From Kiritimatiellota bacterium (GTDB lineage: Bacteria > Verrucomicrobiota > Lentisphaeria > Oligosphaerales > JAADHN01), in NCBI GenBank assembly GCA_013151865.1, contig JAADHN010000009.1:1-50088 (forward strand): a DNA stretch of 50,088 nucleotides, given 5' to 3'. Under the pieces are notes generated by a model. That model was given only the letters and a program-made list of their open reading frames with translations, made no database searches and had not been told where the DNA came from. Shown piece by piece: positions 12,863-40,932 of this stretch (the stretch's first letter is position 1; the number at the start of each line of letters is the position of its first letter). The position numbers were made by a program, and so were the translations under genes.

Positions 12863-14752
12863 ATGCCGCTTCTGCTCGTAGAATCCGGCGACCTGCGCGG
12901 CCTGGCGGTCGAGGTGACCGAAGAACTGATCGTCGGCCGAGACGTCGACGCCGGCCTCCACCTCTCCGACCCCGGTGTTTCTCGGCATCATTGCCGGGTG
13001 TTTCCCGACGATGGCCGCATTTGGATCGAGGACATGGGAAGCCGCAACGGCACTTTTGTAAACGGAGCGGCCATCGAACGCGCCGAACTCGTGCCCGGCA
13101 GCCGCATTCTTGCCGGAACCGTTGAGATGCGGTTTGTCCTCGATTCAAGTGCAATCAAGGACTCGCAGGGCCCCGGGACCACGTTGTTGGATGTCTCCGG
13201 GGATCGGGAAGTGGCCGTATCGGTGGTCGCAGACGCTTCGAACGGGGCGCCGGAACTGCTCGATCCGAGCCAGGCGCTCCTGCGCCTCCAGACGTATTAC
13301 CAAGTGGCGGAGGCCCTGGCCACACAGACTGACGAACACCAGGTGCTGGCCCGAATCCTCCAATGCCTGATGGATATCTTCCCGCAGGCCAGCCGCGCCT
13401 ATGTTCTCATGGGCGACAGCGTCGAGAGAATCCAGGAAAAGGGCCGGCTCTATCGGGAAGGCGGGAAAACCGATTCCGGCGCAACGGTCAGCCGAACGAT
13501 CCTCCGGGCTGTCCTGGAGCGACGTGAAGCAGTACTCTCGACCGACGCGGCCAAAGACCAGCGTTTCCTGGCCGGGGCGAGTATCGTCGAACAGGACATC
13601 CATACCATGATGTGCGCCCCGCTCATCGCGTGCGGGGAAGTGTTGGGCGTGATCGAGGTGGATTCCGCCTCGGTAACACAGCCGTTCGTCGAGGCCGACC
13701 TCAACCTGCTGGTCGGCATTGCGCGACAAATCGCCCTTTTCTTGCGCAACACTCAGCTTGCCGCCCGGGCCGCAACCGAACGCGCGCAACGCAAGCAACT
13801 CGAGCGCTTCTTCTCCCCCGCAGTCGCGCGCCGTGTGGCCGACTCCGAGCTGACGTTGGGCGGCGAACTCCGTGAAGGGGTGGTCATGTTCTGCGATATC
13901 GTCGGCTTTACGCCGATGAGCGAGAAGAAACAACCCGCCGAACTGGTCGAGCTGTTGAACCTTTACCTTGGAACCATGGTCGAGGAAATTTTCGCCGCGG
14001 GAGGCACGGTGGACAAGTTCGGCGGAGACGCCATCCTGGCGGTCTGGGGAGCGCCCGCCCCGGTCGAGAACGACGCCGACTGGGCGCTCCGGGCCGCCCT
14101 CCGTATGCAGAACGACATGGTGGCCTACAATGCCCGCCTCGCCGAAATGGGCAGCGATCCGGTGGGAATGGGCATCGGACTGCACGCCGGTCCCTTCATC
14201 GCCGGGAACATCGGCTCGGCCGAGCGAATGGAATACACCGTGATCGGCAACCATGTCAACTTGGCTCAACGGGTCGAAAGCAAGGCCGCCGCGGACATGG
14301 TCGTGATCTCCGAAGCCGCCGCAGACCGACTGTCCGGCCGGGTGTTGGGGACGCGTTTCGAAGGCGTCCGCCTCAAAGGAGCGGGGGCGACCGTGTGCCT
14401 GATCTGCGCCCGTGGCCTGATCACCCGGGACGAATGTCTTCTGAGTGTGCCCGTCATGCTAGACAACGCCGTTCCCGCAAAAATCATCAGGGCCGATCCT
14501 GAGGCGAGACAACTCGTGGTCAGCACGGGCCGGGCCTTCGGTCCCAGCGCCGTCGACGTACTGGTCACCCCCCGCACGCCCGAACTTGCGGTCCAGCCGT
14601 TCCGAGCCCGACTGATGCCGGAACGCAACGCCGGGAATGATCGCGACCGGATCCTGCAGATGGACCGTCCGGCGCCGTTTCTCGACCGCCTTTTCGACGA
14701 AGGCGTCATCGAAGGCGGCAAGAACGGCATTCCTTGGAGGCGAGAGAGTTGA
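12863..14752 (+). CDS. FHA-GAF-class III adenylate cyclase
   Basis: 629 residues in four parts. First, an FHA phosphothreonine-binding domain (1-95: VGRDVDAGLHL, GVSRHHCRV, SRNGTFVNG). Second, a GAF sensor domain (about 138-300). Third, a class III nucleotide cyclase domain (335-510). Fourth, a 115-residue C-terminal beta-rich domain, possibly PilZ-like, beginning at DECLLSVPVM. Catalytic residues are complete: metal Asp345 and Asp389, purine-specifying Lys385 and Thr459, transition-state Asn466 and Arg470. Lys/Thr indicates ATP to cAMP. No membrane segment is seen, so it is cytoplasmic. The start at 12863 begins directly at the FHA strand. The FHA domain implies input from a Ser/Thr kinase, such as the one at 38943-40046. 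Confidence 0.93.
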   Translation: MPLLLVESGDLRGLAVEVTEELIVGRDVDAGLHLSDPGVSRHHCRVFPDDGRIWIEDMGSRNGTFVNGAAIERAELVPGSRILAGTVEMRFVLDSSAIKDSQGPGTTLLDVSGDREVAVSVVADASNGAPELLDPSQALLRLQTYYQVAEALATQTDEHQVLARILQCLMDIFPQASRAYVLMGDSVERIQEKGRLYREGGKTDSGATVSRTILRAVLERREAVLSTDAAKDQRFLAGASIVEQDIHTMMCAPLIACGEVLGVIEVDSASVTQPFVEADLNLLVGIARQIALFLRNTQLAARAATERAQRKQLERFFSPAVARRVADSELTLGGELREGVVMFCDIVGFTPMSEKKQPAELVELLNLYLGTMVEEIFAAGGTVDKFGGDAILAVWGAPAPVENDADWALRAALRMQNDMVAYNARLAEMGSDPVGMGIGLHAGPFIAGNIGSAERMEYTVIGNHVNLAQRVESKAAADMVVISEAAADRLSGRVLGTRFEGVRLKGAGATVCLICARGLITRDECLLSVPVMLDNAVPAKIIRADPEARQLVVSTGRAFGPSAVDVLVTPRTPELAVQPFRARLMPERNAGNDRDRILQMDRPAPFLDRLFDEGVIEGGKNGIPWRRES

Positions 14753-15633: not shown

Positions 15634-16200
15634 ATGTTTACAGCGTCCGATTTGCGAAAAGGCCTCAAGATCGAACTGGACGGGGAACCTTATGTGGTCA
15701 CGGAGTTCCAATTCTGCAAACCCGGCAAGGGCCAGGCCCTGTATCGATGCAAGCTCCGGAACATGCTCACCGGCGCCTCGATGGACAAGACGTTCCGCTC
15801 GGTGGACAAGATCGACAAGCCGGACCTCGAGGAAAGGGAGTTGCTGTTCTCGTACGAGGACGGCGATGCATTGGTGTTCTTGGACGCCGACACGTACGAA
15901 CAGGTGTCGATCCCCGCGTCGCTTTTGGGGGACAAGCGTTATCTGCTCGCAGACGATATGGCGTGCTCCGTACTCTTTTATCGCGACCGTCCGATCGACA
16001 TTTCCCTCCCCTTCTCGGTCGAGAAACGTATTGCGAAAACCGATCCCGGTGTCCGGGGCGACACGGCCACGAATGTGACCAAGCCGGCCTGGCTCGACAA
16101 TGGGTACGAACTCCAGGTGCCGTTGTTCATCAACGAAGGGGACGTGATCAAGATCGACATCCGGACCGGCACGTATGCCGAGCGCGTCCGAAAAGCTTGA
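15634..16200 (+). CDS. efp: elongation factor P
   Basis: 188 residues, the normal EF-P length. The N-terminal KOW-like domain carries the modification loop CKPGKGQALYRCK with Lys32 at the position that is beta-lysylated in Escherichia coli (Lys34). Two OB-fold domains follow, ending in the conserved segment GDVIKIDIRTGTYAERV. EF-P relieves ribosome stalling at polyproline. The ATG at 15634 begins the typical MFTASDLRKGL. The next gene, 10 bp on, is the enzyme that modifies this Lys, which strongly supports the lysylation type rather than rhamnosylation. Confidence 0.97.
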   Translation: MFTASDLRKGLKIELDGEPYVVTEFQFCKPGKGQALYRCKLRNMLTGASMDKTFRSVDKIDKPDLEERELLFSYEDGDALVFLDADTYEQVSIPASLLGDKRYLLADDMACSVLFYRDRPIDISLPFSVEKRIAKTDPGVRGDTATNVTKPAWLDNGYELQVPLFINEGDVIKIDIRTGTYAERVRKA

Positions 16201-25952: not shown

Positions 25953-27755
25953 TCATGGACGGACTGCTCGGTCTTTGGTCACGATTCGGATGTCGTCGAT
26001 CCAGAGTTCGCCGACGTCCCCGTCCCAGTACAGGTTGACGCGACAACGTGTGTTCTTACCGGGCTGGTCCACCATTTTGAAAGTGACGCTGCGGCGACGC
26101 CATCCGGAATCTCCCGACGGCAGTTTCAGCGCCGGAGAACTCCAAGTCCAGCCCTGGTTGGCCAAGAGGATGCCGTAAGGACTTTTCTTGGCCAGGCCTT
26201 TGGTCTTGACCATAGCCGAGAGCGTGTACTCTCTGCCGGGCTCGAAGGTGAGAGGTGCATCCTGAAGAAACCTCGTCCGCTTGCCGTCCAGCTTGAGATG
26301 GAGGCAGTGTTTCCCGCGAAACGCGCCCTTGTCGACCACGGATACGGCCTCGAGGTGATTCGAGTTCCGCCAACCGCCCCGCCAGCCGACCGGGGCGCCG
26401 TCCCGACGCAGGGTCTCGAAGTCCTCGCTCATCACGATCTTGGGCGGGGCGCCCTGCGTGCGTTGGACGAGCTTGCGCATCACCGGGGGCGGAGTCAGTT
26501 CAAAAGCTTCTTCCATGTACGGCTGGATCTCGATGAAGTTGAATGTGAGTTCCCGACCGATAGGACCGCCGGGTTCGGTCGGCGTCCGCCAGTCGGAAAT
26601 GACCAGCCTCGCGGTGCTCCCTTCGGCCCGGAACACGCGCCAGTGGAAGTTCTGCCAAAAGCGATGATTCCGGTTGAACCGCCCGATGCTTTGAATGCTG
26701 GAGAACTGGTCCTGGAACCCGCGCTCCCCCCCCGGCAGGGGCGCAGCGCCCTCGATGCGGACCGAGACGGCGTGGAGCACGCGGGCTTGGCTGATGCCCT
26801 GGAGCAGATTCCGACGGTCGCCTGTATAAAACCTGAGCGAGTAAAGTCGGCCGGGCGTCAGACGTCCGATCTCCTGGCTGAACGTATTCGGTGCGGCCGC
26901 GCTGCGTCTGGCGACCAAGAAATGGTCGCCCTGCCCGGCGGCGGCCCGATACCGCCCCTCGAGCACGCCGTACCCGGCAAACGAGTCGACGAACATACTG
27001 CCCGCCGCCGCAGGCTCCAGCGTCCAATGCTTCGTGCCTTCATCGAAGTCCGGGTTCAGGATGTGACGCAGCACGTAGGGATGATTCGACAGCGGATCGG
27101 TACGCCCTTCGATGCCGTAATGCCGCAGCAGTCGGCCGGTCCAGAGCAGAGTTTCCGGGTCGAAGTAGTTGGATCGGTACGGCTGCACTCCCCAGAGGCC
27201 GAAGAAGACCGGATTGTCGGCCAGTATCTGGAATTGGCGATCCAAGTGCACCTTGAAGTCGACCGTCGGAGAGGTGTTCGTGGTGCAGTACGGCAGGGAT
27301 GCGTGCATCAACGTAACAATCATCCGGCGTACGCTGCCCGGCAGGGCCGCCTCCCACCCCTTGGCCGAATCCACGAGTCGTTTGCGAATGTTCTCCATGC
27401 TCTCAGCCTCGTTCTCGCGTTCGGCGATGTACCATTCTTCGGAAAAGGGCCAGCCGGCGGCCAGGACGGTCCTGATGAACGCATACCCGCCGCTGGAGTG
27501 ATACACCCCGGGGACAAACGGGATGAACATGCGCCCCTTGAACTGCGGATCTTCAGCCAGGCGGGCGGCGCAACGGCTCAGGGCCAGCCAGGCATCGCGG
27601 GAGAACATGCTCGCCCAGTATTCGTCGCTCTGAATGCCGTCGTAACCGGGGGCGGAATAACCGCGACTGCTCCGCCAGTAGGAATCGGCGGCGGCGGCCG
27701 CCCTGTCCCGGTCGCCTTTTCTCCCGGGATTGCTCTGATTCGCCAGCCAGCACTT
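25953..27755 (-). pseudogene. CBM9-like exported protein, C-terminal part (frameshifted)
   Basis: This frame continues the protein begun at 29574, shifted by one base near 27750. It has no start codon with a ribosome site at the junction, and the sequence reads sensibly from KCWLANQSNPGRKG onward. The bulk (SYWRSSRGYSAPGYDG to about residue 350) is unrecognised, perhaps a catalytic barrel. The last 170 residues (EDFETLRRDGAPVGW to WIDDIRIV) are a jelly-roll carbohydrate-binding module of the CBM4/9 type. Removing one A from the AAA at 27754-27756 joins the two parts into about 1206 residues. It could be a true lesion or a base-call error. Confidence 0.72.
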
Positions 27756-29574
27756 TCCGCCGCCACGCGGCGTGCGCTTCGGGATACTCGCGCAGGCTCT
27801 CGATGGTGTTGCAGTGCGGCAACATGGCCTTTGCGAGTCTTTCCCACGTGTTTGTCCCAAAGGCGCGGATGTGTGGAGTGGTTTCATGGGCGTTGTAGAA
27901 CAGGGCCGGGATGGCCCGAACGACCAACGATTCCGGCCGGCCCTCGATGTGTAGGGAATGGCGGCCCGCGGGAAGCAAGCGCATGGCTTCGGCGTCCCCC
28001 TTGCCAAGGGGCCGGTTCTCCGCATCAAGCCGAACCGTTGCACCACCGGTAAAGTGGAAGAAGCACCACCCGTGACGCGGATTCATAAACTGAATCTCGC
28101 TGTCTTCCAGCAGGCCGCGCTCCCCGGCGTTCATGAGTTCGCTCACCAGGTTGTTGAGCACGCGGATACGGTGTGCCCCGCCGGGCAGCACTGTGGCCGT
28201 CGCGGAAGTCGACGCCAGTTCCCGGCCGCGGATATCGTGCAAGACAGCCCGCACCTCGTACGCGCCCCACGGGATGTCGGCCGTGGAAATGTTTAACCTG
28301 CTCGTCGGTTTGGCACGCTGCATCGTTCGAGTCGTCACGACGCTTCCAGTGAGGCGTGACGCCAGCGTCACAGTCAGCCGGGAATCGGTGGATTCCGCAT
28401 CGGCGGCATGGACGACAATCCGGATCACGGGCGTTTTGACCGGTCCCATGTCTCGCTGCCAGGGATCGACGATCTCGAGCCGCAGGGGCGACACGACGCT
28501 TCGAAACACCGGGCCGAACATGGCCGCACTGATGCTTGAACGGGCGTACGTTTCGCCGGTCGCCGCGTCCGTGACCGTAATTGCGCGCGCCGTTAAACGT
28601 GGCTGAACATAGAGGTCGGTCCTGTGGGCAAACAGCGGCTCCCAACGAACGGTCTCCAAGGGAACCTCGATGGGTGCGTCCGGCGCGAGAACAATCACTT
28701 TTCCCGGGCCCGACGACGGGCCCGCGCGCTCGACGGCGATCCGGACCTTCCTGAGGCGGCCGGTCCGGTTGCGGACCGCAGTGCTCAGCACGGCTTCACG
28801 AAGGACGCCATTGAATCGAGTCCGGAGTTTGGCCGGTCCGAAGGTGTAGCAGTACTTTCGGAAATCGACCTCGATCCCGTGCACGGTGACGAACTTGCCC
28901 GCCTCGTTGAAAGCGCCGCCGGTCGCGAGCGCCGACATTTCGGCCGGGGCCTTCGAGTCGCGGGCGACGTTCAACCCCCAGATGCTCCCCGTTTTTTCCG
29001 TCAGGCCGAACGTATGGAACGGCGCCGCGATCTCGACCGAGTAGAAGTCGTCGCCTCGATGGACCTTGGCGATCCATCCGCCGTTCCAGTCTCTGTCCGT
29101 CACGGCCCCGGCCTGGGTTCGCGCACCGTCCCAGGTAGCGCCATACGCGTTGACGCAGAACTGGTAGTAGTTTTCGCCGCTCTTGCCGGGATCGACCATC
29201 ACCTCCACGTGATCGTCGCCGAACAAACCACTGTCGTGAGGCCTGACGGCGCCTTTGATTTTCGAGCCCTTCTCGCTGAAGCAAGTTACGCCGATGTACA
29301 GATTGCGGTCGTCGTAGCAGATCCGCGCCTCGGTCCGAAAGGCCGACGGTGCGCCGGATCGATAGATCGAGAAACGGGTCGCCGGCCGCGCGTTCCGCCA
29401 GCAGGCGTCGTTGAGCCTCCCGTCAAGGGTCGGCGGGGTTGCCGCTCGCAGTGCCTGTATCGGCGGCGGCGCACCGGTCGCGGTTGCGCCGACGGCGAAG
29501 ATTGCCGCCAACAGGAGGATCGGTGCGCGTGCGGATTCCGCAAACTCTGCGGGGATCAAGCCGAATATTTTCAT
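27553..29574 (-). CDS. CBM9-like exported protein, N-terminal part (frameshifted)
   Basis: The start at 29574 has GGGAGG upstream. A signal peptide (hydrophobic 18-33, cleavage near ATA-TGA) is followed by a CBM9-type carbohydrate-binding module (40-230: PTLDGRLNDACW, LYIGVTCFSEKG, GDDHVEVMVDPG). Beta-sandwich segments follow to about residue 600. After about residue 608 (27750) the frame degenerates into Arg-rich sequence until a stop at 27553, while the neighbouring frame takes over, so the real product probably continues in 25953-27755. CBM9-like domains bind ends of xylan, cellulose and related glycans, so a role at the cell surface or periplasm is likely. Confidence 0.8.
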   Translation of the reverse strand: MKIFGLIPAEFAESARAPILLLAAIFAVGATATGAPPPIQALRAATPPTLDGRLNDACWRNARPATRFSIYRSGAPSAFRTEARICYDDRNLYIGVTCFSEKGSKIKGAVRPHDSGLFGDDHVEVMVDPGKSGENYYQFCVNAYGATWDGARTQAGAVTDRDWNGGWIAKVHRGDDFYSVEIAAPFHTFGLTEKTGSIWGLNVARDSKAPAEMSALATGGAFNEAGKFVTVHGIEVDFRKYCYTFGPAKLRTRFNGVLREAVLSTAVRNRTGRLRKVRIAVERAGPSSGPGKVIVLAPDAPIEVPLETVRWEPLFAHRTDLYVQPRLTARAITVTDAATGETYARSSISAAMFGPVFRSVVSPLRLEIVDPWQRDMGPVKTPVIRIVVHAADAESTDSRLTVTLASRLTGSVVTTRTMQRAKPTSRLNISTADIPWGAYEVRAVLHDIRGRELASTSATATVLPGGAHRIRVLNNLVSELMNAGERGLLEDSEIQFMNPRHGWCFFHFTGGATVRLDAENRPLGKGDAEAMRLLPAGRHSLHIEGRPESLVVRAIPALFYNAHETTPHIRAFGTNTWERLAKAMLPHCNTIESLREYPEAHAAWRRKVLAGESEQSREKRRPGQGGRRRRFLLAEQSRLFRPRLRRHSERRILGEHVLPRCLAGPEPLRRPPG

Positions 29575-31990: not shown

Positions 31991-32945
31991 TCAGCGCAGG
32001 CCGGAACGGCGGCGCACGTACCATTCGAATGAGGCGAGCAGCAGGACGGCCAACAGCCACGGGACCGTTTCACTGAGGACCACGCGCCGGCGAATAACCG
32101 GCACGTCGCGACTGAGGGGGAGGCGTTGGAGGCCACGCATGGCTGAGTAGGGCCGGAATACGCCGCCGGTGATCCGAGCCACGTCCCGAAGTATGTCTTC
32201 GCGATAGGCGGTGTCCGTGGTTTCGGCCCCGGTCCAGCGGGCAACGAAGTGGGCCGTCTTCCGCAAGGTCTCGTCCGGTCTGCGGACCTCGACGTCCACG
32301 GCGTATTCTCCTGCCTGCTCCGGCCGGAACCACTCGCTGTAGGCGCCGGTGTCCAGGTCCGACGGCTGCAGCACGAGTTCTCTGCGTCGCCCGTCGGGCC
32401 CGGTGACTGCGGCGGTCACACGGGCGTCCGCGGCGGGGCCGTAGTCGCGTCTCAGCACTTTGACCCCGAGTTCGATCTGTTTCCCCGCCGGCATCTTGCG
32501 GCCGTCGAAAGCGACGGAGAACCGCGGCTTGGCCGTCGAACTTAACCAGACGAGAAAGCGGTCCCAGAAGGCTTGGTGCAGGTCGAGTCCGGCTCGACTG
32601 CCGAGGCGCCAGCGCCAGGTATCGCGCAATCCCAGACAGGCGACGCGGCCGCTTCCATACGCCTGCGCCACCAGGAGAGCCCTGCGACCGTCCGGAGTGA
32701 GGAGGGCCGGACGGGCGCCTTTTTTCCACTCGGAGACGATCCAGGCCGGGACATTCGGGGGCAGGTACGGTCCGGGCGGCCCGGTCAGGACGCCGTCCGG
32801 GTCTTTTCGGAAAATGAACCCGGGGACCAGCACGAGGGGAAGGCGGCGAGAAGACTGTTCGACGCGGCCGACCAGAACCGGCAGGAGCGCGAGAAGGTCC
32901 GGGGGCAGCGTGTCGGTCGCCCCGATGCAAAGCAGCCCCCCCCCC
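31991..32945 (-). pseudogene. vWA membrane protein, C-terminal part (third frame)
   Basis: Continues the protein of 32785-34148 after the G10 tract at 32945-32936, reading LLCIGATDTLPPDLL onward. It contains the rest of a class-I-glutamine-amidotransferase-like domain, an immunoglobulin-like sandwich (PRFSVAFDGRKMPAG to EYAVDVEV) and a C-terminal membrane helix (VPWLLAVLLLASFEWYV). The frame has no start codon or ribosome site at the junction, so it needs a frameshift or an extra G upstream to be expressed. Confidence 0.72.
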
Positions 32946-33894
32946 GTCGGCTCACAAAACGGCGTATCGTCTTGCGCACGGGAGCGTTCAATCGGCCCAG
33001 GAACGAGGCGTCGGCCACAATCGCGTCGAAGCGATTCAGAGCGTCGGCGCTTCTCGGGAAGTCTTTCGGTTCGCTGCCGGGATCGAACCCCGCATGATAC
33101 CAGGCGTCGGGCGCCATTCGGATCGCGGCGGCCAAACTGAGCTGCCGGTTGGCGCCGGCGGCCATTCTCAGGAACTTGTATTCCCAACCCAGGCGGTCGC
33201 CCAAGTATAGAACATGAAAGACGACCGGATCGGTAATCTCCACTCCGGTGTAGTCCACGTCCGTCTCCGGGCGGATGTCTCCGGAAACGTGCTCGACTCG
33301 GACAGCGTAGGTCTTGAACCCCGCATGAGCGGGAGTCACCCGAAAAGTCTCGGTCAGCTCGGCGGCGCCGGGACGGAGGGCGACGGCCCGGGTCTGCAAC
33401 TGCCGCCCGCCCTCGGTGAGAACCAGGCGCGTCGCGATCTTCTGCGGCAGGGTGTTTCGCAGGCACACGTTCAATTCCAGGGGGCGTCCGGCGGGGGACC
33501 GTGCCGGGGCTGGCGCGAACCGGACGGCAACGTCCCCGCTGCGCCCGACCCCGCCGGTGCCCACGACGCTTACGGGGATGCCCTGCTGCCTGAGCTGTTT
33601 GGCGGCCTGGGTAGGAGGGAGACCTTCATTGCTGTGCCCGTCGGAAAGCAGCAGAACGGCGCCGAGCGGCAGGTTGGGAAACTCGGCAGGGGTGGCCAGA
33701 AGGACGTCCCCCAATGCGGTGTTTCCCGGCAGGATCGCCGAACGCGGTCCGAACGCCGGCTTGAGACTGTCGGCGAACATGAAGGGACGAAAGCGGTAAA
33801 GCGCGCTCAGACGCTGGACCAGTTCTCGAGCGTCAACGCCGGAGGCCGCCTCGAAGCGGCTTGTCTGCGGCGGGGGGCAATCCCGGGTCTTCAT
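32785..33894 (-). CDS. vWA membrane protein, middle part (second frame)
   Basis: Starts at ATG 33894, which overlaps the TGA of the preceding fragment (ATGA). It carries the remainder of the von Willebrand A domain (MKTRDCPP, then AVLLLSDGHSNEG and IPVSVVGTGG), a beta-sandwich region and the first half of a GATase1-like domain (FDAIVADASFLGRL). After the G10 tract (32945-32936) the frame becomes nonsense until a stop at 32785, and the true continuation is in 31991-32945. One additional G would restore the frame. Confidence 0.75.
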   Translation of the reverse strand: MKTRDCPPPQTSRFEAASGVDARELVQRLSALYRFRPFMFADSLKPAFGPRSAILPGNTALGDVLLATPAEFPNLPLGAVLLLSDGHSNEGLPPTQAAKQLRQQGIPVSVVGTGGVGRSGDVAVRFAPAPARSPAGRPLELNVCLRNTLPQKIATRLVLTEGGRQLQTRAVALRPGAAELTETFRVTPAHAGFKTYAVRVEHVSGDIRPETDVDYTGVEITDPVVFHVLYLGDRLGWEYKFLRMAAGANRQLSLAAAIRMAPDAWYHAGFDPGSEPKDFPRSADALNRFDAIVADASFLGRLNAPVRKTIRRFVSRRGGGCFASGRPTRCPRTFSRSCRFWSAASNSLLAAFPSCWSPGSFSEKTRTAS

Positions 33895-34148
33895 ATACTG
33901 GCGGAACAGTCCGTGAGCAGGGCGACCCGGAACCGACTCGGGTCGGGCCGCTCTTTCTCCCGGTACGGCCGAAGCAGGAAAAGGAAGATCAATACAGCCG
34001 CGGCCATGCGAAGCGCAAAGATGAGCGCCCGCCGGCCCGGCTGGAGAGCCGTGCGAAGTCGGTGCGCCGTCAGGGCGAGTGCCGCTCCCAGGACAATCAG
34101 CCAAGCCCAGAGAAACAGCGGTGGCGAAAAGGGTTGAAACCCGATCAT
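33891..34148 (-). CDS. vWA membrane protein, N-terminal fragment (first frame)
   Basis: 85 residues: MIGFQPFSPPLFLWAWLIVLG, two membrane helices (13-29 and 46-60), then the first strand of a von Willebrand A domain ending VALLTDCSAS, where DxSxS is the metal-ion (MIDAS) motif. The frame stops two codons later at TGA (33893-33891), and the next frame continues the motif with Met-Lys. The start overlaps the stop of the coiled-coil gene (ATGA, 34148-34145), so the pair is translationally coupled. Intact relatives in Planctomycetes are single membrane proteins of about 700 residues. Confidence 0.75.
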   Translation of the reverse strand: MIGFQPFSPPLFLWAWLIVLGAALALTAHRLRTALQPGRRALIFALRMAAAVLIFLFLLRPYREKERPDPSRFRVALLTDCSASI

Positions 34149-37100
34149 TGGCTTTCGCTCAGGTCTTTGAAGTATTCTTCCACAAGCGGTCGGTATTTCT
34201 CGGGGGGGACCGCGGCCTGCCGAAAAAGACGGGTCCGTTGCCGGAGGTCGAGGGCAGCGATTCGTTTCTCGAGCACGCGGGCGGCGCCGGCAATGACTTG
34301 AGCCAAGCGCGCTCCGTTCTGCCGGTTGTCTCCGCCCGAAAACGGCAGAGAGAGCGCATCGGCGGCCTGCCTGAGCCCCCGGTCGCGCAGCCCGGAAGCG
34401 AGGCGGTCCAGGTCCGCTCCCGTGTCCCTACGCAATTGATCGAGACGCTGGCCCGTCTCGGAATCGGTTTCCCGGGCCAAGGCCCGGGCTTCCCGGGCGG
34501 CCTGACGGAGCTGGGCCGCGGCGGCCTCGATTTCTTCCCGGGAGAGAGCAGGCAGCAACTGCGCGGCTTTCCGGAGGTTACCCGCCAACTTCAACAATTC
34601 GTTGGCCGCGTCGGTCTGATAGCGTGCGGCGCGCTGGAAGCGGCGGTAGCGGATCGCGTTCGCGGCCCGGGTCATGCGCCCCGGAGCGCCGCTTTCCGCA
34701 AAGGATTGGCGCGCGCGGCCGATGGCCTCGCTCGCCTGTGGGTACCGTTCTTCGAGTGCGTTGGCAACTTTCCCGACCGCCTTCTCGAGACGCTTGCTCT
34801 CCTCGCCGATGCTCCGCTGACTCCGCAATGCGACGGTTGTTTCCGCCTCCGTCACCGCCGACTTGCGGTCGAGCTTGGCGGAAGCACGTGCGGCCGACCG
34901 CTCCTGCTCGGAAAGTCCCTGGGCCGCCGCTGCCAGTTGTTCCACGGCGTTGGCGGACGCACGACGGTAGGCGTCCTCGGTCCGGCGGATCGCGGCAAGC
35001 AGGAACGCGTGGCTTCGGCGGCCCTGGCGTTCGCCGGTTTCGAACGCACCCGTCGACAGGGCGCGCTGTGCGGCTGCCATGGCCGCGGTGGCGGACTGCA
35101 CCGACTGGCGGGGGCGGGCGGTTTCCGGAACGCGTTCGAGGGTCTTTCCGACGCGCGCCGTGTCCGCGCGAAGAGCGGCTTGGTCGGCGCCAAGCTTCGC
35201 CGCGGCCGCGGCCGGTTCGCCCTGGGGCCGACCGGCCTCCCGGTTCAATTCGGCTTGGCGCCGGGCGAGATTGCGTAGTTCGCGAATGGCGTTCTGCAGG
35301 GCTTCCATCTGTTCGGCACGGGAAGCGACCGAGTCGGTCTGGCGGGACGACTCCTGCCGCTTGCGCTGAGGCTTCCCCTGGGACGCTTTGCCTTTCCCGC
35401 CGCGGCTGCCGGCAGCCGCGTTCTTGAGAAGCTGGTTTTCGAGGGCAATCAAACGGGCCAAGGCCCGTTCCTGGGGCGAGAGCGACTCTTCGATCAGGTC
35501 CGTTGCGGCGAGTTGCTTTGCCTGTTCGATCTCGGCGACGGCTTCCCCGAGCAGGGCGCCGATGGGACCGCTACCCCCAGGGCCCACGGCCGCCCGGATT
35601 TCCTGGAGTTTTCGCGCTGCGGCCGTGCGCAGGTCGCTCAAACCGGTAACCAGTGTTCGGGTTCGCGCGCGCCGGTCGGGACCGGTCAGGGCGAGGGCAT
35701 CGTAGGTCACGCGGATCAGGCGCTTGATCTCCGCGATCAACGGGCCGATGTCCATTTTCTTCTTCTGTCCGCCGGCCCCGCCGGAGCGGGGCGTAATTTT
35801 CGGGCGCACCTCGATGAAAAAGATTTCGGAGCGCGCCTTTTGCGGGTCGGGGCTCCGGTTGTCAACCGCGACAAAGGAATAAGCCAGCACGTCGCCTTCT
35901 CTTGCCCCGAGTGCCTTGACGTCGAACCGGTAGGCCACGGTCTGCCGCGTGGGGCCCGGCTTGCCGGGCGCGGCCGCGCCCCCGGCCCCACCCGGCGCCG
36001 GAGGAAGAACCGGTGGAGTCAGCGTGCGGCGGTCCCGCCCGGAAACGGAAAAGGTGAGTTCGACGCGCGCCAGACCCAGGTCGTCTGCGGCCCGCGCCAC
36101 GGTGCGGACTACGGCATCCGGCAGAACTTGAACGTCCCGTCCCGGTTCCAAGACATCGATGGCGGGGGGGCGATCCGGAATGCTCTCCGCCCGAAAATCC
36201 GGGGTGCGCGTGCGGTGTCCCTCCCGGTCGCGGAGCGTTACGGCGAACGTAACGGATTTGCGGAGTTCGCAGGAAACGGACCGGGCGGCGCCGGGGGTGG
36301 TGGGAGCGAGACGTCGGCGGTCCCGGCCCCAAAGCAGAGTCACGGCGGCGCCGGGGGTGGGTTCGACCGAAAAGCGGACGCGACTGCCGACCGGAGCGCT
36401 GAAGTCTTGCAGGTCTGTTATCTCCCGAGATGCAACGCCGGTATACGCCGGCGGGACAATTTCGATTCGACTGCGTCGGATGGCGGGGGGGCGATAGGGA
36501 TCGATGCGGAACCAAGCACTGGCCAGCGAAGGGGTGAGGATCCGGTAGCGCACCGGCGCGTCGACGGCGTACAGAGTGAAGGTATGCGTCCGCCCCCCGC
36601 GACCAGGCGTCGGGCGCGTCATTCGGAAACGGCGGCTGCCCTCGGGCGTCAGAGTAACGATCTCCGCAGTGTTTTGCCACCTGCGGACGGTCGCGGCAAT
36701 GGTCACGTCGCTGTTTTCCGCGATCTCGGTGTTGCCCGGGGTGACGACCAGACCGGTGTGCTCGCCTCGAAGTCGGTCCGCCAGTTCCCAGCGTGCCTTT
36801 TGCACAAATCCACTGCGGCCGGCGAGTGCCGCGAGGGCGCAGAACAAGAGGCCGGCGAACGCAAGCCGCCCGGTCCGGAGCCCGGGAGGAATCAGGACGG
36901 CAGACAGATCGAGCGAGGCGGTCCCGGCGGCAACCGAGTCGTGGAGGGTCTTTTCCAAAGGGCGTAGAGACCTGCCGTTCCGGATCTCGAGTTCGACCGC
37001 ACACACATACGAATCCATCAATTCCGGATGAGCATTCTCAACGGCCAGAGCCAGTTCCTCCGGGTGCGGCGGAAACAGGAGGACACGCAACAATTGTCCG

Positions 37101-37366
37101 CCGAACCGCAGCAGAACGAGAACCACGGCCAATCCTCCCACGACGAGTGCCGTGGGTTCCCGAAAAGAAAGGAGTCGGTCCAGGGCGTCGAACAGCAACA
37201 GAGCGCCGGCGACCAAACCCAGTGCTGTGAGGCAGGCTTCCACGATCCGGCGACGGCGCAAGTCCCGGGCCGTCCGAGCAAGCCGGTCCAGCAAGGGCGC
37301 CCCCTCCGTCGGGGGGGGGCGGGACTCGCACCGGGGAGCCGGCATGATTCTGCTTAACCAATTCAT
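34145..37366 (-). CDS. large coiled-coil membrane protein, DUF4175-like
   Basis: 1073 residues. Two N-terminal membrane helices (about 45-62 and 73-92) and a third near 160-180 are followed by Ig-like beta domains (200-480: VVTPGNTEIAENSDVTI, RIEIVPPAYTGVASREI). About 550 residues of Ala/Arg/Glu-rich coiled coil then extend to the C terminus. The order matches DUF4175-type proteins that accompany vWA/BatA-like proteins in PVC and other bacteria. The start is uncertain: 37366 (MNWLSRIM) or 37345 (MPAPRCES); neither has a good ribosome site. Its TGA overlaps the start of the vWA gene. MoxR and DUF58 genes, common partners, are absent nearby. Confidence 0.82.
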   Translation of the reverse strand: MNWLSRIMPAPRCESRPPPTEGAPLLDRLARTARDLRRRRIVEACLTALGLVAGALLLFDALDRLLSFREPTALVVGGLAVVLVLLRFGGQLLRVLLFPPHPEELALAVENAHPELMDSYVCAVELEIRNGRSLRPLEKTLHDSVAAGTASLDLSAVLIPPGLRTGRLAFAGLLFCALAALAGRSGFVQKARWELADRLRGEHTGLVVTPGNTEIAENSDVTIAATVRRWQNTAEIVTLTPEGSRRFRMTRPTPGRGGRTHTFTLYAVDAPVRYRILTPSLASAWFRIDPYRPPAIRRSRIEIVPPAYTGVASREITDLQDFSAPVGSRVRFSVEPTPGAAVTLLWGRDRRRLAPTTPGAARSVSCELRKSVTFAVTLRDREGHRTRTPDFRAESIPDRPPAIDVLEPGRDVQVLPDAVVRTVARAADDLGLARVELTFSVSGRDRRTLTPPVLPPAPGGAGGAAAPGKPGPTRQTVAYRFDVKALGAREGDVLAYSFVAVDNRSPDPQKARSEIFFIEVRPKITPRSGGAGGQKKKMDIGPLIAEIKRLIRVTYDALALTGPDRRARTRTLVTGLSDLRTAAARKLQEIRAAVGPGGSGPIGALLGEAVAEIEQAKQLAATDLIEESLSPQERALARLIALENQLLKNAAAGSRGGKGKASQGKPQRKRQESSRQTDSVASRAEQMEALQNAIRELRNLARRQAELNREAGRPQGEPAAAAAKLGADQAALRADTARVGKTLERVPETARPRQSVQSATAAMAAAQRALSTGAFETGERQGRRSHAFLLAAIRRTEDAYRRASANAVEQLAAAAQGLSEQERSAARASAKLDRKSAVTEAETTVALRSQRSIGEESKRLEKAVGKVANALEERYPQASEAIGRARQSFAESGAPGRMTRAANAIRYRRFQRAARYQTDAANELLKLAGNLRKAAQLLPALSREEIEAAAAQLRQAAREARALARETDSETGQRLDQLRRDTGADLDRLASGLRDRGLRQAADALSLPFSGGDNRQNGARLAQVIAGAARVLEKRIAALDLRQRTRLFRQAAVPPEKYRPLVEEYFKDLSESQ

Positions 37367-37719
37367 AATACACTTGCTGTATTCATGGATGCGCACATCG
37401 CAAAAAAACCTCGAAGACCGTCCCGGGAGTCCCCACGGCCCCGACGGAGCGCGCCGGCCGCGGCCCTGCATATGGCATGAGCCATCTGCTGCGATGACGC
37501 ATCTCACACATCTTCAGAACATCGCCGCCACCCAGCGACGGAGGCGGCGTTTCAACACAGCCCTGCCCGACGCTCGACACAATGACTTGAATCCGTATGG
37601 ACTACGCCCGCTCGCAACGAAGTCCACGAATCAATCAGGCCAAGGTGGCGGCATCTATCGGAAAGAAGGAAACGGGTGAGACGACGCGGACCGCACTTCG
37701 CTTCAATGCGGGGCCGGGG
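37367..37719. other. 353-bp intergenic gap with repeat R1-B
   Basis: Lies between the small membrane-protein gene and the coiled-coil gene (both minus). Nearly half is repeat R1-B (37475-37641). No gene is supported in the rest. Confidence 0.5.
37475..37641 (+). repeat. dispersed intergenic repeat R1, copy B
   Basis: Ungapped partner of copy A (14905-15071), 137 of 167 identical. It contains a perfect 7-bp hairpin, CGCCGCC (37523-37529) with GGCGGCG (37543-37549) around a 13-base loop. Its first 30 bases also match the sequence just before copy C. Confidence 0.8.
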
Positions 37720-40046: not shown

Positions 40047-40932
40047 GATTCCCCTCCAGGCGCCAAGTGTCTCGCTCCCGCGCCCAGTGAACCCTGCATT
40101 TGCACGCTGCCCGTGCGACCGCTTCCATGTCGCGCAGAGCGGCATCGCTCTGGGCCGGATGATGATGGGTCATCAGCAACTGGCAGACTTGGTTATGTAC
40201 ACAGAGATCCCAAGCCTGTCGCCAACTGCTGTGTCCCCAGTCGGGATACTTGTGAATCTCCGAGTCGGCAAAGAACCCGTCGATGGCGGTGAGCCCGGCA
40301 GAAAACGGGTCGTGGAGCAGTCCCTGGAGCGCCCCCCCCCGTCCGTCCGCGGCAATCTCGACATCGGTCCCGAAGACGAATGCATTCGCCCCGGTATCGA
40401 AACGCAGCCCGGAACACGGCTGCGGGTGGGGCATCCCACCCCAGAACACCGTCAGGCCCTGTTCCGGCAACTCGTATCGACCCTGGGGGGGCATCGGCAC
40501 AAATTCCAGCGCGGCGCCGACGTCCTGCAGGGCGACGGGATGATAGGGGGGCGAGAACCATTTGGTCAGGGCCGCCTCCACATCGGGCGCGGCGGAGAGG
40601 ATGCGGACGCGACAATCGGAGCGGTAGATCGGTGCGTAAGAAAACATGCCGCTGATGTGGTCGCTGTGGAGATGGGTCAGCCAGATGTCGAAATCCCGCA
40701 CGCCCCGCTGCAACGCGGCTTCTGCAGCAGGAATCGCCCCGGTCCCCAAGTCCACGAAAAGTGGGCGCGAACCGTCCCTCCAAACTTCAAGCGCGGTCGT
40801 GTGGACCCCGAATTCGGCGCTCGGGACGAACGGGACGACTGTTCCACGGGTGCCCCAGAACGTCACATTCAAAGCGTCGGCCCGGTTCCCCGCCGGCGGA
40901 CTTTTCTCACGGCTTGGATGTTCCCGCCCCAT
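40030..40932 (-). CDS. metallo-beta-lactamase-fold hydrolase
   Basis: 300 residues. The metal-binding HxHxDH motif is exact: HLHSDH at 87-92. Further ligands are likely in GTDVE and THHHP, and the order resembles RNase Z/phosphodiesterase-type MBL proteins. An N-terminal FWGTRGT turn is typical of the group. The start at 40932 has GGAGG 8 bases upstream. It is first of a minus-strand run and overlaps the kinase gene by 17 bases. A role in cyclic nucleotide or phospho-signal turnover is plausible given the divergent cyclase gene, but that is inference. Confidence 0.9.
   Translation of the reverse strand: MGREHPSREKSPPAGNRADALNVTFWGTRGTVVPFVPSAEFGVHTTALEVWRDGSRPLFVDLGTGAIPAAEAALQRGVRDFDIWLTHLHSDHISGMFSYAPIYRSDCRVRILSAAPDVEAALTKWFSPPYHPVALQDVGAALEFVPMPPQGRYELPEQGLTVFWGGMPHPQPCSGLRFDTGANAFVFGTDVEIAADGRGGALQGLLHDPFSAGLTAIDGFFADSEIHKYPDWGHSSWRQAWDLCVHNQVCQLLMTHHHPAQSDAALRDMEAVARAACKCRVHWARERDTWRLEGNHARKA

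Follow-up and report, generated by a model that had tools for sequence, protein, structure and literature searches.

The ATGA overlap that interrupts the MIDAS motif of a vWA gene is very probably the by-product of one of two independent small indels in a single ordinary gene, with error favored over mutation as their origin. The gene lies on the minus strand of the window, by which we mean the whole stretch of DNA analyzed (50,088 bases, one entire contig of a draft genome of 6.21 Mb in 176 contigs that is related to Lentisphaeria and probably metagenome-assembled). As judged from a structural model of an intact relative, it is predicted to encode a BatA/BatB-like vWA protein that is anchored in the membrane and carries an additional ThuA/GATase-like domain. 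In the mechanism we propose, one length change would consist of two bases too many at the MIDAS Met codon, and the other would concern the length of a G tract at an Arg-Gly-Gly-Gly motif, the ATGA overlap being a mechanical result of the former and not an evolved start.

The MIDAS Junction and the Three Pieces of the vWA Gene

Read on the minus strand, the junction at the MIDAS motif (break 1) runs GAC TGT TCC GCC AGT ATA TGA. The upstream frame extends from 34148 to 33891 (−) and ends after 85 amino acids with D-C-S-A-S-I; its stop codon TGA (33893–33891, −) overlaps an ATG (33894–33892, −) within the four bases ATGA (33894–33891). The frame of this ATG reads M-K-T-R-D-C, carries the vWA domain on and remains open to 32785. 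An initial annotation had described DCSAS followed by a stop, another frame continuing with MKTRD and an overlap of TGA and ATG, and the minus-strand sequence bears this out in all respects but one: The DCSAS frame does end at the TGA, but an Ile codon (ATA) intervenes between the motif and the stop.

The coding information is distributed over three pieces. Piece A (33891–34148, −), whose product starts with MIGFQPF, encodes the N-terminal helices, which are probably transmembrane, as well as the first vWA strand and DCSAS, followed by Ile and the stop. Piece B belongs to a frame of 369 amino acids (32785–33894, −) and encodes the rest of the vWA domain, the middle beta domain and the first part of the ThuA/GATase-like domain; its Pfam VWA match scores 18.5 bits, under the cut-off of 23.8, and its homology runs only down to a tract of ten G, the last 49 residues of the frame being out of frame and unrelated. 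Piece A contains the DxSxS segment; the NTALG and SDG segments, which we take to be the further MIDAS segments (T and D) of the vWA domain, are found in piece B. The G10 tract constitutes break 2 (32936–32945, −), located on the coding strand inside a conserved [R/K]GGG motif about 1 kb downstream of break 1 in the same gene. Here the frame changes again, and piece C (31991–32939, −) continues in the third frame with the rest of the ThuA/GATase-like domain, a beta domain and the last helix. Among the 124 G/C runs of at least seven bases in 698,832 sampled bases of the genome, this tract is the only run of ten. We consider it very unlikely that the gene is phase-variable, with the G10 tract and the AT repeat switching the full-length protein on and off and the assembly having caught the off state.

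Nearly All Homologous Loci Keep a Single Reading Frame

With piece B we searched 59 genomes, namely the genome of the window itself and 58 relatives. Matches were obtained in 53, and from the larger number of matches we compared the best 29 that lie in other genomes (L003–L031). Some of these loci are close relatives of each other, so that the counts of 28 and 29 given below do not represent independent cases. The closest genomes found belong to the same order, with at most 43% identity over piece B, and none of them to the same genus or family; seven of the 12 named loci with the gene come from metagenome-assembled genomes of Lentisphaerae, Lentisphaeria or Victivallales. Among the best 29 loci, BLAST matched piece A in 10, piece B in 29 and piece C in 28 (at 29–46% identity, the unmatched locus L003 ending with its contig). 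Wherever they were found, the pieces are consecutive parts of one ORF in all loci except L007: In L008, for example, piece A ends at residue 102, piece B begins at 102 and piece C begins at 439. One frame is kept as far as the contig goes in 28 of the 29 loci. The exception, L007 (G019:C761), is the only other broken vWA copy among them, and its break lies at a different place.

In each of the 28 loci that cover the MIDAS motif (L009, cut by its contig end, stands outside this count), D-x-[S/T]-x-S is followed by Met (26 loci) or Leu (two loci), and D-x-[S/T]-x-S-[M/L]-x-x-x-D is read in a single frame with no length difference. The initial annotation had put forward an extra AT dinucleotide as the cause of the break and a comparison with homologues as a means of checking it. 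This comparison upholds the proposal: Since all 28 covering loci have one frame and identical spacing, two bases less than in the window, the latter carries two surplus bases at ATAT (ATATGA, 33891–33896, −, in which the TGA and the ATG overlap). At break 2, the motif is Arg/Lys-Gly-Gly-Gly with one frame through it in 29/29 loci, and neither break of the window is seen in any other compared locus.

The overlap itself can be derived from the surplus. When AT is duplicated before a Met codon ATG and the next base is A, the sequence reads ATA-TGA, and ATGA arises automatically; the overlap is therefore unremarkable in itself. Across eight predicted gene segments, the window has 106 ATG codons, of which 16 are followed by A.

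An evolved split, in which translation would terminate at the TGA and re-initiate at the ATG and an N-terminal membrane piece would reassemble with a second vWA piece, draws on the presence of this overlap and on the fact that coupled gene pairs are most often spaced by the four-base ATGA (PMC10666635). Pairs of this type are well documented (PMC10666635); they join whole genes. The vWA locus resembles such termination–reinitiation pairs in its four-base stop/start overlap and differs from them in that one domain is cut in two, an arrangement without counterpart in relatives, and in that the downstream part is itself broken; two complete proteins that are kept in relatives are not found here. 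The arrangement occurs in none of the 28 covering loci, the cut is placed inside the vWA domain just past its first strand, and none of the five Shine–Dalgarno-like motifs looked for is present upstream of the ATG at 33894. Moreover, the frame that follows the ATG fails in its turn at the G10 tract, ahead of the conserved C-terminal part, and a protein restarted at break 1 would lack about 320 conserved C-terminal residues. In view of these findings and of the automatic origin of ATGA from an AT duplication, we regard an evolved split as highly improbable, and the ribosomal restart, split protein or tuned translation contemplated in the initial annotation finds no support.

Alternatively, the full-length protein could be restored if transcript slippage or a programmed −1 frameshift took place at both breaks: The shift required at each of them is −1, and the G10 tract is shaped like a slippery run. 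However, inspection by eye found no slippery heptamer before the TGA at break 1, the homologues need no shift at either position, and the 70-base stretches downstream of the two breaks are no more structured than 200 shuffles (z of 0.24 and 1.00, pseudoknots being outside the scope of this folding). As the downstream RNA is plain, the five Shine–Dalgarno-like motifs looked for are missing and the breaks occur in no other locus, reinitiation and a programmed shift are both unlikely, and we give the programmed shift hardly any weight.

If the locus is read as a single ordinary gene carrying two small indels, the state of the remaining sequence is informative. The window keeps the conserved residue in 62 of 64 columns (columns conserved in at least 90% of the other rows, with both L007 rows excluded), which lies within the range of 0.843 to 1.0 retained in the other loci. 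The coding signal per base is alike across the pieces, with 11.7/211 for A, 49.7/870 for B and 55.2/949 for C. Intact conserved residues and an intact coding signal are in keeping with an error, or with a mutation that is very recent.

Predicted Structure and Position of the Breaks

The structure of the intact relative L113 was predicted with a mean pLDDT of 85.3 and a pTM of 0.61. In the model, two N-terminal helices (10–31 and 37–59) are followed by the vWA domain, a CARDB-like beta domain, a ThuA/GATase-like domain (~313–545), a beta domain and a C-terminal helix (702–722). For this model, Foldseek listed chains of complement C5 and of the axoneme at the top, with low TM-scores of 0.10–0.14 to the query; its ranking put large multi-domain chains first, and the domain matches quoted here are taken from a second comparison. 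The family shares with BatA/BatB-type vWA membrane proteins the vWA domain with its DxSxS MIDAS segment, and the L113 model aligns with 4jdu (Z 18.8, rmsd 3.1, 179 aligned residues) and with 3ibs, a BatB (Z 17.8, rmsd 3.2, 178 aligned). It differs from them by three additions, namely the CARDB-like beta domain (3idu: Z 14.1, rmsd 2.1, 107 aligned), the ThuA/GATase-like domain (2gk3: Z 20.4, rmsd 2.4, 198 aligned; 1t0b: Z 16.4, rmsd 3.0, 197 aligned) and a further beta domain ahead of the last helix. Break 1 corresponds to L113 residue 85, directly after the strand 74–80, and break 2 corresponds to residues 409–411, at the strand 411–415; on this model, both breaks fall inside predicted domains.

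The Coupled Junction Upstream

BatA/BatB genes are found in a neighborhood with moxR and DUF58 genes. The co-oriented gene upstream of the vWA gene is an ORF of 1120 amino acids (34145–37507, −) that gave no Pfam or NCBIfam match at the limits used and overlaps the vWA start by ATGA (34148–34145). We checked this overlap in seven loci: In L003, L004, L006, L007 and L008, ATGA is present and the upstream protein ends in a conserved tail; in L005, the tail before the ATGA string is unrelated, and L019 lacks the ATGA. Because the upstream overlap recurs in relatives, the genuine coupled junction of the locus is, as far as sequence conservation indicates, the one about 250 bases upstream and not the reported one at the MIDAS motif. 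The vWA locus is mainly a caution for annotation: When two bases are duplicated at a Met codon, ATGA can appear automatically inside a domain, and an overlap of this kind should not be recorded as a pair of coupled genes.

Other Frame Breaks in the Genome

We conducted a coding-frame HMM census of the window and 40 further stretches, together 698,832 bases (648,744 outside the window). It yielded 14 strong same-strand frame breaks, compared with 3 in 400,000 bases of G012 and 1 in 283,429 bases of G021; the excess is suggestive, the three samples differing in size and assembly type and the homology check covering this genome only. The strong criterion misses the MIDAS break, which is among 86 other same-strand frame changes here. 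Three of the 14 strong events lie in the window, at the G10 tract, in a CBM9 gene near 27,748 and at 40,115. The last of these (40,115/40,074) was considered as a frame break and is read as two neighboring genes instead.

The CBM9 gene (25953–29574, −) is the second broken gene of the contig; the initial annotation had recorded neither its break nor the one at the G10 tract. The CBM9 match lies in the ORF upstream of the frame change, and the downstream ORF has a CBM_4_9 match below the cut-off. Both pieces are found in one ORF in three of the nine compared loci (L125, L126 and L130), the other six matching the upstream piece only. Four further strong breaks concern ordinary genes without N runs (L044 near 18,583, L092 near 16,320, L095 near 4,555 and L106 near 14,592), and for each of these four genes both pieces are joined in one ORF in all four compared loci. 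Together with the vWA and CBM9 genes, this amounts to six homology-confirmed broken genes in the 699 kb sampled, so that claims of gene loss from this genome need read support.

The remaining strong breaks fall into two groups. Three lie at or beside N runs (L094, L097 and L099), and four in or beside transposase matches (once in L034, three times in L041). In L041 (G000:C50), the three breaks occur within 9.7 kb with matches to Transposase_mut and DDE_Tnp_1; they probably represent decaying mobile elements. Assembly N positions are found at L094:13069, L097:3338–3346, 14387–14395 and 15641–15644, L099:16478–16485, L106:258–300 and L046:3261.

Two readings of the length changes in the vWA gene are to be weighed against this background. 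Indel errors in metagenome assemblies, a recognized source of error, lead to predicted proteins that are shorter than their relatives, which is the subject of the IDEEL type of check, and genuine pseudogenes are the alternative to such truncation (PMC13087279); the predicted products of the vWA gene, likewise shorter than their relatives, fit this pattern together with its alternative. We infer that both length changes are assembly or consensus errors, a reading we hold to be somewhat better than even, with the three breaks at or beside N runs favoring assembly trouble. A recent pseudogene, inactivated by two frameshift mutations that are genuinely present in the population, is a less probable but substantial alternative. 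It gains from the presence of two lesions in one gene, from the further broken genes and broken transposases of the same genome, and from the two-base AT surplus at break 1, which is atypical of a homopolymer error; the conserved residues and coding signal left intact in all three pieces speak against it, as do the breaks at or beside N runs. Most other breaks of the genome have no long homopolymer alongside, which, together with the atypical AT surplus, leaves room for real mutations. The choice of error over mutation is accordingly to be taken as the favored assignment for what very probably are two small indels in one gene.

Several searches gave negative results within their scope: For 549 bases of the site, a plasmid search found no match, a scan of viral contigs turned up no relative, and nothing in the window matched Rfam at gathering thresholds. 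A 16S rRNA gene was not detected in the genome, the same search being positive in only 9 of 14 control genomes. Literature searches on Lentisphaerae vWA/MIDAS proteins and on programmed frameshifting in bacterial vWA genes listed no paper on the subject, as judged by titles and the opening lines of abstracts, and we claim no wider absence.

Two minor observations concern recurring sequences. Residues 1–34 of L092:16255–17337 (−), a stretch upstream of a URO-D-like gene, recur in more than 20 other places in the genome, mostly at ~60–90% identity, and probably represent a dispersed intergenic repeat. In G012, the breaks at L059:12283 and L066:18837 share an A7 run and identical start-codon spacing; they probably belong to a transposable element with frameshift expression that is present in two copies.
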